Source: a virus. From it: DNA of 64,000 nt. Positions 9,316 through 40,536 of this stretch are shown here, piece after piece. Numbering within the stretch: the first letter of the stretch is position 1; each line of letters begins with the position of its first letter. The stretch spans positions 62,001 to 126,000 of the IMG/VR virus record IMGVR_UViG_3300042090_001530; one strand, written 5' to 3'. Position numbers and translations under genes: made by a program. The notes below the pieces were generated by a model. The model did no database searches and was not told where the DNA came from. It was given only the letters and a program-made list of their open reading frames with translations.

Positions 9316-10238
9316 CCGTCACCGACGACCGCCCTGCCACGGACTTGGCTGCCGCGACCCTCACCGCGTACGGCGAGCATGCCGTTGAGATCACCGAGCC
9401 GGGGATCTTCGACCATCTGACGCTCGAGCAGTATCACGCAGACATGGTGCCGGGCGGTTCGCTCTCCTCGTCGGGCGCGCGCAAACTGCTGTACCCGTCG
9501 TGCCCAGCCAAGTTCGACTGGGAGCGGCGCCACCCGAAGCCGCCGACCAGCGCGATGGAGTTCGGTTCCGCAGTGCACTCCATCGCACTGGGCAACGGCG
9601 CGGAGGTCGTGCCGGTGGATGCGAAGTCGTGGGTGGGCGGCGCGGCACAGCAGGAGCGCAAGGAGATCCGCGCGTCGGGGCGCATCCCGCTGCTCGACGT
9701 CGAGTTTCAGACGGCGAACGAGATGTGCGCCGCGCTGCGCAGGGATCCGCTGGCCGCGAAGCTGCTCGACCCGTCGTGTGGCAAGGCGGAGCGCAGCCTG
9801 TTTTGGCGGGACGAGAAGACCGGCGTGATGCTGCGCGCCCGCCCGGACTGGCTGCCGGAGCCCGTCGAGGGTGAGCGGCTGATCGTGCCTGACATCAAGA
9901 CGACGACCGAGGTGGACGGGGACTCTATCTCCAAGGCGTTGGAGACGTACTCGTACCCGATGCAGGCCGACTTCTACGAGTCCGGCATCAGGGCGCTCGG
10001 GATCGCGCAGGATGTCGTGTTCCTGTTCATCTTCGTCCGGAAGACCCGGCCGCATCTGATCCGGGTCGTCGGGGTCCCGGAGATCGACCGGACGATCGCG
10101 GCGGCGAAGAACCGGCGCGCCATCGACCTGTACGCGCAGTGCACCGCCTCCGGCGAGTGGCCCGCCTACGAGCCCGGCATCACCTACATCGATATTCCCG
10201 GCTGGGCACAGTCGCGTGATGCGCAGGACTACCTGTGA
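9312..10238 (+). CDS. RecE-like PD-(D/E)XK exonuclease (DUF3799 type)
   Basis: 308 residues. N-terminal GGSLSSSGARKLLYPSCPAKF is the typical opening of RecE-type exonuclease VIII domains of actinophages. The nuclease core follows: H89 in AMEFGSAVHSIALG, E160, RARPDW with D179, then PDIKT with D194 and K196, and the helix Q218-A-D-F-Y. These are the expected RecB-family catalytic positions. It would resect double-stranded DNA 5'-3' to give 3' tails for the annealing protein encoded just downstream. The RecE-RecT pairing strongly supports the call. Confidence 0.85.
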   Translation: MTVTDDRPATDLAAATLTAYGEHAVEITEPGIFDHLTLEQYHADMVPGGSLSSSGARKLLYPSCPAKFDWERRHPKPPTSAMEFGSAVHSIALGNGAEVVPVDAKSWVGGAAQQERKEIRASGRIPLLDVEFQTANEMCAALRRDPLAAKLLDPSCGKAERSLFWRDEKTGVMLRARPDWLPEPVEGERLIVPDIKTTTEVDGDSISKALETYSYPMQADFYESGIRALGIAQDVVFLFIFVRKTRPHLIRVVGVPEIDRTIAAAKNRRAIDLYAQCTASGEWPAYEPGITYIDIPGWAQSRDAQDYL

Positions 10239-10275
10239 CCGCCGCGCCGATCATCACCATTCCTGGAGGGGAACT

Positions 10276-11220
10276 ATGACTGAACTCGCTGTTGTCGAAC
10301 CGCATACGGCGGCGCTCGCCCAGCCTGTGCCGCAGGCTGCGCTGGCCGTGCAGGAGACGAGCCCGCTTGCCCGCTGGGTGGAGGAGGCCGCGCGGGCGGA
10401 GGAGCTCGCGACGCGGCTCGCGAGCACGTCGTTCGTGCCCGCGTCGATGCGCGGCAAGCCGGTCGAGGTCATGGCGGCGATCCTCGCCGGCATCGAGCTC
10501 GGCTTTCAGCCGATGGCGGCGCTGCGCTCCATGGACGTGATCCAGGGGACGCCGGCGCTGCGCGCTCACGCGATGCGCGGCCTGGTGCAGTCGCACGGGC
10601 ACGACGTGGAGCTGGTCGGCGAGGCGACGCCGGAGCGCGTGGTGATGCGCGGCCGCCGCAAGGGCACGGAGAAGTGGCAGCAGACCACCTGGGATATTCC
10701 GCGCGCCGCGAAACTCGGCCTAGTCGGGAAGCCGGAGTGGAAGAGGCAGCCGCAGACGATGCTCATCGCGCGCGCTACTGGCGAGATTTGCAGGCTGGTG
10801 GCGTCCGACGTCATTTACGCGATGCCGTACGCGGCGGAGGAGTTGGACGGCGACACGCTGCCGGACGGCCGTCCGTTCGCAGAGCCGCGGGTGACCGTGG
10901 ACGAGGTCATGAACCAGACGCCTGCGGTCGAGGCGCCGCGCCCGGACTACCTCGCGATGGCGCAGGCCGCCATGTCGATCGAGCAGTGGCGGGAGGTCTG
11001 GGGTCAGGCGTTGTCGGCGGGACATCTCGACGACGAGTTGAAGCAGCAGCTCGTGCAGCGCGGCCAGGAGCTCAAGAATGCCAGTCAGCCTGCGATCGGG
11101 TCGACCGCGGAGCCGTCGCCGTCGGACTCGTGCGGCATCTGCATGCAGCCGGGCCACTTCGAGGACGACTGCCCGCAGCGCGACGACTCCGAGCCCGCGC
11201 CGGATGAGGCAGGCTACTGA
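10276..11220 (+). CDS. RecT-like single-strand annealing protein with CCHC zinc knuckle
   Basis: 314 residues from ATG 10276 (GGAGGGG upstream). Residues ~28-200 match RecT-type annealing proteins: PLARWVEEA, VEVMAAILAGIELGFQPMAALRSMDVIQGTP, TTWDIPRAAKLGL, ARATGEICRL. After a linker, the C-terminus holds C286-x2-C289-x4-H294-x4-C299, an exact retroviral-type zinc knuckle that could bind ssDNA or RNA. It acts with the upstream RecE-like nuclease in homologous recombination. The knuckle is an unusual addition to RecT. ATG of the next gene overlaps its stop. Confidence 0.85.
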   Translation: MTELAVVEPHTAALAQPVPQAALAVQETSPLARWVEEAARAEELATRLASTSFVPASMRGKPVEVMAAILAGIELGFQPMAALRSMDVIQGTPALRAHAMRGLVQSHGHDVELVGEATPERVVMRGRRKGTEKWQQTTWDIPRAAKLGLVGKPEWKRQPQTMLIARATGEICRLVASDVIYAMPYAAEELDGDTLPDGRPFAEPRVTVDEVMNQTPAVEAPRPDYLAMAQAAMSIEQWREVWGQALSAGHLDDELKQQLVQRGQELKNASQPAIGSTAEPSPSDSCGICMQPGHFEDDCPQRDDSEPAPDEAGY

Positions 11221-16883: not shown

Positions 16884-17124
16884 GCGCTTCAACCCGGCCC
16901 CGGACCCGACGTATGTCGCTGAGCAGCGCGGCCTGTTCGTGGACCTTTGCACGCTGCTCGGTGCGCACAACGCGTACGGCACGACCGAACCGGGCGACTA
17001 CGACGAGGACGGCAACGGCGGGCTACTGCTCCGGCAGTTGCCGACCGTGTGGCGGCCGGTTGAGTCCTGCCGCGACCTGGCCGCGCTCGCCGACGAGGCC
17101 TACCGTACGGAGGCGGACCGGTGA
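16876..17124 (+). CDS. small hypothetical protein
   Basis: 82 residues from ATG 16876 (AGGAGG upstream). Pattern FVDLCTLLGAHNAYG and TVWRPVESCRDLAALADEAYRTEADR. GTGA-coupled to the RusA-like gene. Not recognised. Confidence 0.55.
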   Translation: MPERFNPAPDPTYVAEQRGLFVDLCTLLGAHNAYGTTEPGDYDEDGNGGLLLRQLPTVWRPVESCRDLAALADEAYRTEADR

Positions 17125-17570
17125 CCGCGATCCAGGAACCGTTGCCCGGCGCAGTTAAGGCGCCGGAACCCACTGTCATCGCCCTGGAGTTCCCGGCCGG
17201 CTACTCGCCCTCGTCGTCGCTGACGTTCTTCCAGTGCGGGTCGAACATGCGCAAGAACCGGTGGGCCAAGGCGCGCATCACCAAGCAGATCCGCCAGGAC
17301 GCGGCCCAACTCGCGCGCGCCCAGGGCCTGCCGCAGATCACGCAGCGAGTGGACGTCCTCGGCGTGCAGCATCCCGCTCCGGGCAAGCGCACGATCGACG
17401 CCGAGAACATTGCCCCGCTGGTCAAGGCTTCAATCGATGGTCTACGCGATGCGGGCGTCCTCCGGAACGACTCGTCGAAGTATGTGCGCACCGTGGCATA
17501 CACGACCGGCCCGCGCATCCCGGGCGGCCAACTGGTCCTGCACCTGACGATGCTGGACGGTGCGGCGTGA
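17121..17570 (+). CDS. RusA-like Holliday junction resolvase
   Basis: 149 residues from GTG 17121. The C-terminal half carries the RusA core KRTIDAENIAPLVKASIDGL, where the Asp/Asn and following Lys correspond to the D-x-D-N...K metal site, then AGVLRNDSSKYV. RusA enzymes resolve Holliday junctions as dimers and are common phage recombination proteins. The usual second acidic residue appears as D-A-E-N rather than D-P-D-N. It sits after the RecE/RecT region and is GTGA-coupled to the C5 methyltransferase. Confidence 0.8.
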   Translation: MTAIQEPLPGAVKAPEPTVIALEFPAGYSPSSSLTFFQCGSNMRKNRWAKARITKQIRQDAAQLARAQGLPQITQRVDVLGVQHPAPGKRTIDAENIAPLVKASIDGLRDAGVLRNDSSKYVRTVAYTTGPRIPGGQLVLHLTMLDGAA

Positions 17571-18925
17571 ACGCCCCCATCGACGTGATCGACATCTTCG
17601 CCGGGCCTGGTGGATGGTCGCTGGCCTGCCGCACCCTAGGTCTTCGCGAGGTCGGGATCGAACTCGACCCGTGGGCGTGTGCGACCCGCGCCGCGGCCGG
17701 GCATCTCACCGTCCGCGCCGATGTGGCCGCGTTCCCTGTCCGGCAGCTTGCCCGCCGCGGAGAACGTCCCGCACGGCGGGGACTGATCGGCTCCCCGCCG
17801 TGCGGGACGTTCTCCGCGGCGGGCAAGGGGGAGGGCGTCGGCGACCTGCCGCTGCTACATCAGGCCCTCGACGACCTTGCTGCCGGGCGCGACCCGCGCG
17901 CTGACCTCGCTGCGGCCTGCTCGGACCCGCGGACCCCGCTAGTCGTCGAGCCGCTGCGGTACGCACTGGCGATCCAGCCCGAGTGGATCGCGCTCGAGCA
18001 GGTGCCTGCCGTGCTGCCGCTGTGGGAGCACATCGCCCGGATTCTGCGCGACCGCGGCTACTCGACGTGGACCGGGATCCTCAACGCCGCCGACTACGGG
18101 GTGCCGCAAACCCGGCGGCGCGCGATCCTGATTGCCTCCCGCGTCCGGACGGTCACACCGCCCGAGCCGACTCACGCGAAGGAAGCCGAGATCGAGACGC
18201 TGTTCGGCCCCGGCCGACGGCGATGGGTGTCCATGGCTGAAGCGCTCGGCTGGCTGCCCGCAGGTGTCGTCAACACCCGCGGAGAGCGCAAGACCCCCGG
18301 CGGCAACGAGTTCTCCGCCGACCGGCCGTCTTGGGCGCTGACCGAGAAGGCCAGGTCGTGGACGGTGCGCACGCTTTCCGGCAATGGAGACGCTCACGAC
18401 TACGAGCGGGACCTAGACGAGCCGTCGCCGTCGCTGACTTCGCGATCCGACCGGTGGCGCGTCGATGTAGGCGCAGGAGGGTTCGCCGGGGGCTGGGGAC
18501 GGAACGGAGACGAGCCGTCGCCGACGATTCGACTCCAGTCGCAGTCGTGGGTACTTAGGCACAACGACCGGGCGAACGCGACGGTGCGCCGCATTGATGA
18601 GCCCGCCGGGACTCTCGCCTTCGGCCATGCCCGGAATGAGTACTGCTGGATTCCGGGCATGGCCGAAGGCGAGAGTCCCGGCGGGCATGCCTCCGATACC
18701 CACTCCCGGTCGGAGTCGGTTCACATCACAATCGAGGAGGCTTCGGTCCTTCAGTCGTTCCCGAGCGACTACCCGTGGCAGGGCACAAAGACCCAGAAGT
18801 TCCTTCAGTGCGGCAACGCCTGGAGTCCGCGCGCCGCGATGGCCGTGATAGGTGCCGCGACGGGCATCGACTGGCAGCCGGTCGCGGCGCGCTGCTACGA
18901 CGAGGTTGCGCAGGTGGCCACATGA
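17567..18925 (+). CDS. C5-cytosine DNA methyltransferase
   Basis: 452 residues from GTG 17567. Motif I DIFAGPGGWS (~9-18), motif IV GSPPCGTFSAAGKG with catalytic C79, motif VI-like ALEQVPAVLP (EQV in place of ENV), motif VIII QTRRRAILIA, a long recognition region, and motif X-like LQCGNAWSPRAAMAV. It transfers methyl groups from SAM to C5 of cytosine, probably to evade host restriction. Two perfect long inverted repeats lie inside the gene, one abutting motif IV and one in the recognition region. Both keep the frame open but insert atypical residues, so activity is not certain. Confidence 0.85.
   Translation: MNAPIDVIDIFAGPGGWSLACRTLGLREVGIELDPWACATRAAAGHLTVRADVAAFPVRQLARRGERPARRGLIGSPPCGTFSAAGKGEGVGDLPLLHQALDDLAAGRDPRADLAAACSDPRTPLVVEPLRYALAIQPEWIALEQVPAVLPLWEHIARILRDRGYSTWTGILNAADYGVPQTRRRAILIASRVRTVTPPEPTHAKEAEIETLFGPGRRRWVSMAEALGWLPAGVVNTRGERKTPGGNEFSADRPSWALTEKARSWTVRTLSGNGDAHDYERDLDEPSPSLTSRSDRWRVDVGAGGFAGGWGRNGDEPSPTIRLQSQSWVLRHNDRANATVRRIDEPAGTLAFGHARNEYCWIPGMAEGESPGGHASDTHSRSESVHITIEEASVLQSFPSDYPWQGTKTQKFLQCGNAWSPRAAMAVIGAATGIDWQPVAARCYDEVAQVAT
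17747..17827. repeat. 36-bp perfect inverted repeat inside the methyltransferase
   Basis: Left arm 17747-17782 is the exact reverse complement of right arm 17792-17827, with a 9-nt loop. The right arm encodes motif IV (SPPCGTFSAAG), so the left arm is the likely secondary copy. Left arm plus loop is 45 nt, a whole number of codons. Confidence 0.95.
18601..18686. repeat. 37-bp perfect inverted repeat inside the methyltransferase
   Basis: Left arm 18601-18637 is the exact reverse complement of right arm 18650-18686, loop 12 nt. The left arm encodes EPAGTLAFGHARN, which fits the family; the right arm encodes PGMAEGESPGGH, which looks like antisense read-out of it. Confidence 0.95.
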
Positions 18926-28663: not shown

Positions 28664-28700
28664 TTGACCTCCTCCACCCGCCTGAAGGCGGGGGATTCCT
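28664..28700 (-). repeat. right-end hairpin of the TnpB element (omega-RNA region)
   Basis: Reads AGGAATC, then the hairpin CCCGCCTTCAGGCGGG, then a purine run ending GTCAA on the minus strand. In characterised TnpB systems the guide (omega) RNA spans the tnpB 3' end to this boundary. A guide RNA here is inferred. Confidence 0.65.
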
Positions 28701-29893
28701 CACTTCGCAGCGAGGGTTTCCTGCTTCAGCGCCGACTGCCCGCCGGGACGAGTCCCTTGAGGTCTTACATCGGCTCCACAGGCGTCCACCGCGAGCCCCG
28801 CGGCGGTCAGAAGGTTCCGTGCGGCGTTGACGTCGCGGTCGTGGACCGCACCGCACGCGCAGACCCATTCGCGGACGTGCAGCGGCATCTTCTCGGCAAG
28901 CGCCCCGCAGCCCGAGCACATCTTGCTCGACGGGAACCAGCGGTCGATCACGACCAGGCCCCGGCCGTGCCAGGCGCACTTGTACTCCAGCATGCGGCGC
29001 AGCTCGGACCAGGACGCATCCGAGATCGCGCGGGCGAGACTGTGGTTCTTGACCATGTTGGACACGGCCAGGTCCTCGATCACGATCGCTTGGTTCTCGC
29101 GAACGAGCCGAGTCGTCAACTGGTGCAGGTGGTCGCGGCGCCGGTCGCCGATCCGGGCGTGCACGCGCGCGACCTTCACCCTGGCCTTGTCTCGGTTCGC
29201 CGAGCCGGGCTGCTTGCGCGCCAGGTTCCGCTGGGCCTTGGCCAGCTTCTCCCGGTCGCGCTTCTCGTGCTTGGAGTTGCCGATCTTCTCGCCGTTGGAC
29301 AGCGTGGCCAGCGACGTCAGGCCTACGTCGATGCCGACCGCGCGGTTCGCCGCGGCGGGCAGCGCCTCGATCACGTCGTCGCACAGCATCGACACGAACC
29401 AGCGGCCCGCACTGTCGCGCGACACGGTCACGGTCGTCGGCTCCACGCCCGCAGGCAGCGGACGCGACCAGACGATGTCCAGCGGCTCGCGCATCTTCGC
29501 GAGCGTCAACTGCCCGTCCCGGTACCGGAACCCGGATCGGGTGTACTCGGCCGAGAGCTTCGACTTCTTCCGCGATTTGAACTTCGGGTGCCGGGCGCGT
29601 TTGGCGAAGAAGTTCGAGTACGCCGTGTCCAGGTGCCGCAGGGCCTGCTGCAGCGGGACGCACGAGACCTCGGCGAGGAACGCGGTCTCGTCGGTGCGCT
29701 TCCACTCCGTCAGGCGTCCGGAGCAGGCCGCGTAGCCCAGGCGCGTCCCGTCGAGCTTCCATGCTTCGGAGCGCTCGTGCAGGGCCTTGTTGTACACGAA
29801 CCGGACGCAGCCGAAGGTGCGGCTCAACTCCTGAGCCTGCTCTCCGGTGGGGTAGAAGCGGAACTTGAATGCCCGCTTGACCTGCTGCGACAT
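28700..29893 (-). CDS. tnpB: TnpB RNA-guided nuclease-type protein
   Basis: 397 residues. N-terminal OrfB HTH (FKFRFYPTGEQAQELSRTFG...VYNKAL), then the split RuvC core with D189 (GIDVGLTSL), E273 (VIEDLAVSNM) and D354 (HDRDVNAA), and a zinc ribbon C326-x2-C329 ... C345-x-C347. All catalytic residues are present, so it may be active as a guide-RNA-directed nuclease that keeps the element at its site. Divergent in sequence from the TnpB at 39304-40536. Confidence 0.9.
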   Translation of the reverse strand: MSQQVKRAFKFRFYPTGEQAQELSRTFGCVRFVYNKALHERSEAWKLDGTRLGYAACSGRLTEWKRTDETAFLAEVSCVPLQQALRHLDTAYSNFFAKRARHPKFKSRKKSKLSAEYTRSGFRYRDGQLTLAKMREPLDIVWSRPLPAGVEPTTVTVSRDSAGRWFVSMLCDDVIEALPAAANRAVGIDVGLTSLATLSNGEKIGNSKHEKRDREKLAKAQRNLARKQPGSANRDKARVKVARVHARIGDRRRDHLHQLTTRLVRENQAIVIEDLAVSNMVKNHSLARAISDASWSELRRMLEYKCAWHGRGLVVIDRWFPSSKMCSGCGALAEKMPLHVREWVCACGAVHDRDVNAARNLLTAAGLAVDACGADVRPQGTRPGGQSALKQETLAAK

Positions 29894-38865: not shown

Positions 38866-39282
38866 TTAAACGGGCCTGTTCTGCTGCTCGATGTACTGGC
38901 GCAGCACACTGATCGGCGCACCGCCGACGGACCCGGCGAAGTACGAGCCGGACCACAGCCGCTGCGCCCGCCAGTAGTGCCGAACGAGGTCGGGAAACTC
39001 CTGGCGCATCCGCCGCGAGGAGACGCCCTTGAGCGAGTTCACGAGTTTGGAGATCGCGACCTTCGGCGGGAAGTCGACCAGCAGGTGGACGTGGTTGTCC
39101 TCGCCGTTGAACTCGACCAGTTCGCACTCGAAGTCGGCGCACACGTCCCGCATGATCTCCTCCATGCGCCGCAGGTGCCGGTCCTGGAACACGGAATGCC
39201 GATACTTGGTCACGAAAACCAAGTGTGCGTGCAGCGCGAAAACACAGTGCCTGCCAGTGCGGATCTCGTCATACGAAGCCAT
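38866..39282 (-). CDS. tnpA: IS200-like Y1 transposase TnpA
   Basis: 138 residues. HUH motif H64-V-H66 (EDNHVHLLVDFPP) and catalytic tyrosine Y130 (VLRQYIEQQ), with the usual N-terminal HLVFVTKYRHSVF. It catalyses single-strand peel-and-paste transposition at the replication fork. Complete length for the family. Confidence 0.93.
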   Translation of the reverse strand: MASYDEIRTGRHCVFALHAHLVFVTKYRHSVFQDRHLRRMEEIMRDVCADFECELVEFNGEDNHVHLLVDFPPKVAISKLVNSLKGVSSRRMRQEFPDLVRHYWRAQRLWSGSYFAGSVGGAPISVLRQYIEQQNRPV

Positions 39283-39303
39283 GAAACCAAGTATGATGGA
39301 AGA

Positions 39304-40536
39304 GTGCAGCTTCGGTACAACTTCCGCCTCGACCCGACACCCGGTCAGCGCATCGCGCTCGCCAAGGCATTCGGGTGCGCGCGGGTCGTATGGAACGACG
39401 CGCTCGCGCTGCGCAGGACCGCGCACGAGGCCGGGCAGCCCTGGCCGAAGACCGGCGATCTGTCCAAGACGCTGATCACCGAAGCGAAGCGCACCCCGGA
39501 GCGCGCATGGCTCGCAGACGCGCCGACCGGGGTTCTTCAGCAGTCGCTGCGCGACTTGGATGCGGCGTACCGGAGCTTCTTCGACTCGCTGTCCGGCAAG
39601 CGCAAGGGCCCGAAGGTCCGCGAGCCTAGGTTCAAGTCCCGCAAGGACAGTCGGCAGGCCGTCAGGTACACGGTCTCGGACCGGTTCGCGGTGCGGCCGA
39701 ATGGACGCCTGCGCCTGCCGAAGGTCGGCGAGGTGGCGGTGCGCTGGTCGCGCGAGTTGCCGTCCGTCCCTTCGTCCGTGACGATCATCAGGGATCCGTC
39801 GGGTCGCTACTTCGCGAGTTTCGTCATTGTCACCGACGAGGCTGTGGATTTGGGGCGCTTCCCGGCCGGTGACGACTACGCCGAGACCGGCATCGATCTC
39901 GGCCTGACGCACTTCGCGGTTCTGTCGGACGGCAAGAAGGTCGATGCGCCGAGGTTCCTGCGGCGGGCGGAGAAGAAGCTCAAGAAGCTGCAGCAGTCCC
40001 TCGCGCGCAAGGAGAAGGGCTCGAACAACCGCAGGAAGGCCGCCCTCAAGGTCGCCAAGCAGCATGCTCACGTCGCGGATGCGCGCCGGGATTTCCACCA
40101 CAAGTTGTCGACGACGTTGATCCGCGAGAACCAAGCGGTGTACGTCGAAGATCTGTGCGTGGCCGGTCTCGGACGCACCCGGTTGGCGAAGTCGGTGCAC
40201 GACGCGGGCTGGTCGTCGTTCGTCGGGATGCTGGAGTACAAGGCCGCGCGATACGGGCGGCACTTCGGGAAAATCGGCCGGTTCGAGCCGTCGTCGCAGA
40301 CGTGCACCGCATGCTGGGCGATCGACGGCAAGAAGCCGCTCTCGGTCCGCGAGTGGACGTGCTCCGGCTGCGGTGCCGTGCACGACAGGGACGTGAACGC
40401 GGCAAAGTACATACTGGCCGCGGGACGCGCGGACAGGGTAAACGCCTGCGGAGACCAGGTAAGACCGGGACTAGTCCCGGCACAGGTCGACGAAGCAGGA
40501 ACCCGCCGAAGCGAGCTCGCCGGGGCGACCCGGTGA
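39304..40536 (+). CDS. tnpB: TnpB RNA-guided nuclease-type protein
   Basis: 410 residues from GTG 39304 (the longer open frame upstream is antisense of tnpA). RuvC residues D198 (GIDLGLTHF), E282 (YVEDLCVAGL) and D363 (HDRDVNAAKY); zinc ribbon C334-x2-C337 ... C353-x2-C356. Intact. Only distantly similar to the TnpB at 28.7 kb although the right ends match, so the two elements are not recent copies. Confidence 0.92.
   Translation: MQLRYNFRLDPTPGQRIALAKAFGCARVVWNDALALRRTAHEAGQPWPKTGDLSKTLITEAKRTPERAWLADAPTGVLQQSLRDLDAAYRSFFDSLSGKRKGPKVREPRFKSRKDSRQAVRYTVSDRFAVRPNGRLRLPKVGEVAVRWSRELPSVPSSVTIIRDPSGRYFASFVIVTDEAVDLGRFPAGDDYAETGIDLGLTHFAVLSDGKKVDAPRFLRRAEKKLKKLQQSLARKEKGSNNRRKAALKVAKQHAHVADARRDFHHKLSTTLIRENQAVYVEDLCVAGLGRTRLAKSVHDAGWSSFVGMLEYKAARYGRHFGKIGRFEPSSQTCTACWAIDGKKPLSVREWTCSGCGAVHDRDVNAAKYILAAGRADRVNACGDQVRPGLVPAQVDEAGTRRSELAGATR

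Follow-up and report, generated by a model that had tools for sequence, protein, structure and literature searches.

Two long perfect inverted repeats lie within a single predicted C5-cytosine DNA methyltransferase gene of a phage, and both are very probably scars of fold-back template switching in DNA replication, with analogous independent events in related genes. The DNA analyzed (the window) is 64 kb of a 202,490-base IMG/VR virus record, a metagenomic-type contig. An earlier note on this DNA pointed out one of the repeats (IR1) and named a fold-back switch as one of three possible origins; this option is now well supported by the identity of the new arm, the short stems at the palindrome ends, the recurrence in relatives, and the reading frames that are kept. 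The second repeat (IR2), 800 bases downstream from IR1 in the same gene and with longer arms, had been overlooked. Comparison with relatives shows that one arm of each (left in IR1, right in IR2) is an antisense copy of a neighboring conserved stretch that overwrote a variable linker.

The methyltransferase gene occupies positions 17,567–18,925 (+ strand) and encodes 452 aa in an intact frame. It starts with GTG and overlaps by 4 bases the stop of the upstream gene, which encodes a RusA-like Holliday junction resolvase (17,121–17,570, + strand; phrog_34, E = 2.3e-16). The product is a predicted C5-cytosine DNA methyltransferase, as indicated by its motifs and its match to the PF00145 profile (E = 1.9e-27, 97 bits versus a curated cut-off of 22); it also matches phrog_116 (E = 1.9e-52). 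In the alignment with relatives, FAGPGG (motif I), the PC of motif IV, motif VI, QTRxR (motif VIII), and GNA (motif X) fall in invariant columns. There are some variants, specifically PCG for the usual PCQ, EQVP at motif VI, and GNAWSP at motif X. The first two also occur in close relatives, and the GNAW variant occurs in the related gene L058. Motif X (18,812–18,860) reads GNAWSPRAAMAV rather than the usual GNAVPPLLA, and its counterpart in L058, GNAWCPRAAAAV, is nearly identical, so the motif X of the window gene appears to have been exchanged as a module and not to have decayed. The target-recognition (variable) region, delimited by motif borders and alignment, lies between the SMAEAL and LQSF blocks (codons 229–384; 18,251–18,718, + strand) and makes up 30% of the gene. 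Relatives were found in virus contigs, plasmids, and actinobacterial chromosomes.

IR1 has 36-nt arms at 17,747–17,782 and 17,792–17,827 (+ strand, as for all the features below) that on recomputation are exact reverse complements separated by a 9-nt loop, just as first described. The right arm encodes motif IV, SPPCGTFSAAGK, with the Cys codon at 17,801–17,803, and it is the original arm, kept in all close relatives. The earlier note was correct that this arm encodes the catalytic block, although motif IV lies inside the arm and does not merely abut the repeat. The loop (17,783–17,791, CTGATCGGC) encodes LIG and is ancestral. Where the left arm encodes LARRGERPARRG in 12 codons, all close relatives have 7 (MAGKIRG or similar). 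Because the relatives have those 7 codons at the left-arm site and conserve the right arm, the left arm is the new antisense copy, and it is the extra one when the gene is aligned with homologous C5 methyltransferases. The proposal of an antisense copy thus stands, but that of a 45-nt insertion of arm plus loop is ruled out by the alignment: the change from 7 to 12 codons gained only 5 (net +15 nt), and the loop was there already. No relative has the IR1 palindrome. A structure model places the left arm (residues 61–72) as a loop between a helix (58–61) and a strand (72–75), and this loop before the motif IV strand is likely a place tolerant of changes in length.

In IR2, the original arm is the left one (18,601–18,637, 37 nt), which encodes EPAGTLAFGHARN, a variable-region module that is conserved. 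It is followed by a 12-nt loop (18,638–18,649, GAGTACTGCTGG, encoding EYCW) and by the 37-nt right arm (18,650–18,686), whose peptide, IPGMAEGESPGGH, has no counterpart in any aligned relative. Given that the left-arm module is conserved and the right-arm peptide lacks a counterpart, the right arm is the new antisense copy. At the same site, the related genes L013 and L065 have palindromes that differ in sequence, loop, and extent, and L012 has none; IR2 and these two are three different palindromes, all starting in the same kind of module. The structure model has low confidence in the variable region, including IR2 (pLDDT mostly <50).

Under fold-back template switching, the growing strand would pair with itself via a pre-existing short stem (CGGGGA/TCCCCG at IR1), copy its own ∼24 intervening bases backwards, and rejoin the true template through another short match (CTTGCC/GGCAAG), so that a quasi-palindrome would be extended to a perfect palindrome. 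At IR1, the proposed inner seed CGGGGA (17,777–17,782) pairs with TCCCCG at 17,792–17,797, and the proposed outer return point CTTGCC (17,747–17,752) pairs with GGCAAG at 17,822–17,827; the sequences are seen, and the roles are putative. L012, which is without IR1, has the inner stem with 5 pairs (CGGGG/CCCCG). An inner stem and an outer match, with the inner stem present in L012, are the layout expected of fold-back copying. The outer match was not seen in the relatives, nor was an inverted seed at IR2. We found no near-identical palindrome-free sequence, and the states before and after the switch are deduced from relatives with 55%–74% protein identity. The new codons in both palindromes are reverse complements of the old ones, and reverse-complemented codons seldom give a stop in G+C-rich DNA. 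The changes would have survived because they preserved the frame and because the changed sequence lies, at IR1, in a surface loop that precedes the motif IV strand and, at IR2, in the variable target-recognition region. It is well established that template switching can convert imperfect inverted repeats into more perfect ones (PMC6357072, PMC8604942).

Beyond IR1 and IR2, the 202,490-base record contains no perfect short-loop repeat with arms >17 nt. The longest short-loop arms in 100 versions of the 64-kb window simulated with a first-order Markov model were 10–15 nt, versus 37 in the real sequence, and the score of codon-shuffled methyltransferase genes was never >18. Across genes, arms of at least 20 nt were found 6 times in 329 kb of ∼269 distinct related genes, whereas 1.50 Mb of other coding DNA, identified by a simple G+C rule, yielded none. 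Were the six distributed by length alone, all of them would land in methyltransferase genes rather than in the other coding DNA with a probability of ∼3e-5; leaving out the window, which was picked for its palindrome, the excess is 4 versus 0 and the probability ∼1e-3. Six such repeats were also found in 471 kb of other DNA (i.e., not called coding), where terminators and repeats are expected.

Among the ∼269 genes, the palindromes with arms of at least 19 nt comprise the two of the window gene (36 and 37 nt) and those of L027/L046/L348 (31 nt), L013 (30 nt), L065 (24 nt), L328 (23 nt), and L014 (19 nt). Each has its own sequence, with none common between them, and in all seven the arms are 100% identical and the reading frame is kept. 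L046 comes from an isolate genome, that of Actinokineospora enzanensis DSM 44649. Five of the 8 genes in the clade around the window gene (support 99) carry their own palindrome of at least 16 nt. Most of the palindromes are in the variable region: six of the seven with at least 19 nt (p = 0.004) and 11 of the 12 with at least 16 nt (p = 2e-5), the latter count leaving out the naturally self-complementary LVDQPLVHQA site. The variable region has 1.4–1.7 times the density of short inverted seeds (6–8 nt) found in the N-terminal part, a difference too small alone to explain the six of seven, but one that may contribute. The same process thus appears to have hit relatives independently, making fold-back copying a repeated contributor to the variation among these genes. 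The recurrence may reflect more frequent switching, greater tolerance, or selection for new specificity.

Some other inverted repeats require separate mention. The 14- to 17-nt palindrome at LVDQPLVHQA in Streptomyces chromosomal copies (L233, L215, L189, L170, L171, and L190; methyltransferase codons ∼78–93) was set aside because the peptide is conserved in the family and is encoded by naturally self-complementary codons. Palindromes of 16–17 nt in L012 (3671–3707), L057 (4651–4685), and L144/L076 (3913–3947 in L144) share one site, PAGVxNTRG, and their outer bases differ yet still pair; they could be either independent events or one palindrome maintained by repeated switching. In a Streptomyces genome, three alternating 35-nt perfect inverted copies (L193, 4134–4259) lie ∼0.7 kb upstream of a related methyltransferase, probably in intergenic DNA, and adjoin a masked run of Ns.

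The arms are identical although the methyltransferases themselves diverge by at least a quarter of their protein sequence. A mismatch-tolerant scan found no decayed long palindromes; at 63%–86% identity, scores were about those of codon-shuffled genes. Identical arms and the lack of decayed long palindromes suggest that the events are recent, that further switching homogenizes the arms, or that palindromes are soon lost. If perfect arms do mean recent events, the process may be ongoing and measurable. Among 299 Actinokineospora-family genomes, we found no near-identical copy of the palindrome-bearing gene L027, none being closer than ∼59%–68%.

Could the palindromes have arisen in library preparation, amplification, or assembly rather than in the phage? 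DNA amplification is known to produce fold-back chimeras, the contig is of metagenomic type, and an exact search of virus contigs for each loop junction found no second contig carrying either. However, two palindromes fall in one gene when none >17 nt occurs elsewhere in 202 kb, the frame is kept in all seven family palindromes of at least 19 nt, and the new arm takes the place of a linker instead of being added at random. Analogous palindromes are moreover present in independent assemblies and in the A. enzanensis isolate genome. We therefore consider the artifact raised as an option in the earlier note to be very unlikely. The other option raised there, a functional hairpin, would have the palindromes selected as, for example, a translational pause, an RNase III site, or a DNA structure controlling the methyltransferase. 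The arms are perfectly identical, and the predicted RNA folds are strong (about −92 kcal/mol each, z-scores −12.6 and −15.5), but any perfect hairpin of such size would have a comparable folding energy. Conservation is where this option finds no support: IR1 is in no relative, and the IR2 site has unrelated palindromes (L013, L065) or none (L012). Neither palindrome thus recurs with its own sequence at its position in the relatives compared, and for neither did we find a hairpin maintained in place by compensatory changes. The palindromes at the common PAGVxNTRG site, with their different outer bases, are what selection for a hairpin might leave, but the conserved peptide, with codons that are near self-complementary, explains them in part. 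Overall, selected hairpins seem very unlikely.

Insertion of a palindromic mobile element is the least credible explanation, and we regard it as extremely improbable. In-frame palindromes inside coding genes are known in Rickettsia (cited in PMC6649704), but each palindrome here is built from the adjacent sequence of its own gene, and the same unit was not found at several unrelated places, all palindrome sequences being different. A further possibility concerns what provokes the switching. C5 methyltransferases form covalent complexes with DNA that could stall replication forks and so promote template switching, and in E. coli 5-azacytidine requires the cytosine methylase Dcm to raise template switching (PMC6357072). 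The complexes in that work are drug-trapped, however, and such an effect should act across the phage genome, yet the palindromes are only in the methyltransferase gene, so that local action or tolerance would also be needed. Provocation by the enzyme is therefore highly improbable as the explanation, and a role for methyltransferase–DNA complexes in the window palindromes is speculation.

Fold-back template switching, the preferred reading, has precedents. Within coding genes, inverted repeats are known to undergo template switching (PMC8604942), and palindromes in coding sequence are on record as well (PMC6649704). As in the quasi-palindrome mutations of bacteria and yeast (PMC6357072, PMC7202029, PMC3820800), in which one arm is copied from the other and the repeats become more perfect, one arm here is a reverse-complement copy where the ancestral state was different (left in IR1, right in IR2). 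What differs is the long copied tract (36- to 37-nt arms), the insertion or replacement of several codons, and the recurrence in one gene family. In Saccharomyces cerevisiae, template switching likewise homogenizes arms in coding genes, changes several neighboring amino acids, and recurs (PMC8604942), but with up to five neighboring replacements, as against ∼12 new codons per event in these phage/prophage methyltransferases. The known long perfect inverted repeats in functional coding genes are similar, and template switching has been proposed for them too; in those, however, both arms encode conserved residues and the sites are common between species, whereas the palindromes described here have one arm of new variable sequence and differ in site or in sequence. 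Rickettsia palindromic elements are also in-frame palindromic insertions in protein genes, but they are a mobile repeat family and not copies of adjacent sequence. Finally, target-recognition parts are likewise altered by within-gene rearrangement when sequence moves between positions in Type I specificity subunits of restriction-modification systems (PMC3077401); in our case the copy is antisense and local. Among the open papers found, none mentions in its title or abstract that fold-back copies recur in the recognition domains of methyltransferases.

Template switching is usually viewed as a source of small clustered changes. Here it appears to write stretches of about a dozen codons, repeatedly and predominantly where the enzymes are expected to recognize their DNA target, and fold-back accidents may be one way in which such methyltransferases change. 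If the enzymes are active with altered specificity, this would be a simple, testable route to a new recognition sequence that requires no recombination with another gene. A much more tentative idea, which we think rather unlikely as it stands, is that fold-back switching is a regular, adaptive source of new target-recognition sequence in the mobile C5 methyltransferases of actinobacterial phages, aiding changes of methylation target and escape from host restriction, with the enzymes' own covalent DNA complexes perhaps raising the rate.

The genomic setting of the gene offers some additional observations. RusA enzymes have four-way junctions as their substrates, and a RusA-like resolvase gene adjoining the palindromes is a curious neighborhood; L049 and L053 encode proteins immediately upstream that, by eye, resemble its product. 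A RecT-like single-strand annealing protein is encoded at 10,216–11,220 (phrog_4171), and its presence suggests that the phage has its own annealing function. Two frames, at 28,700–29,893 (− strand) and about 39,200–40,530 (+ strand), resemble TnpB-type transposon nucleases by eye, and the latter adjoins an antisense frame that, also by eye, resembles a Y1 transposase.
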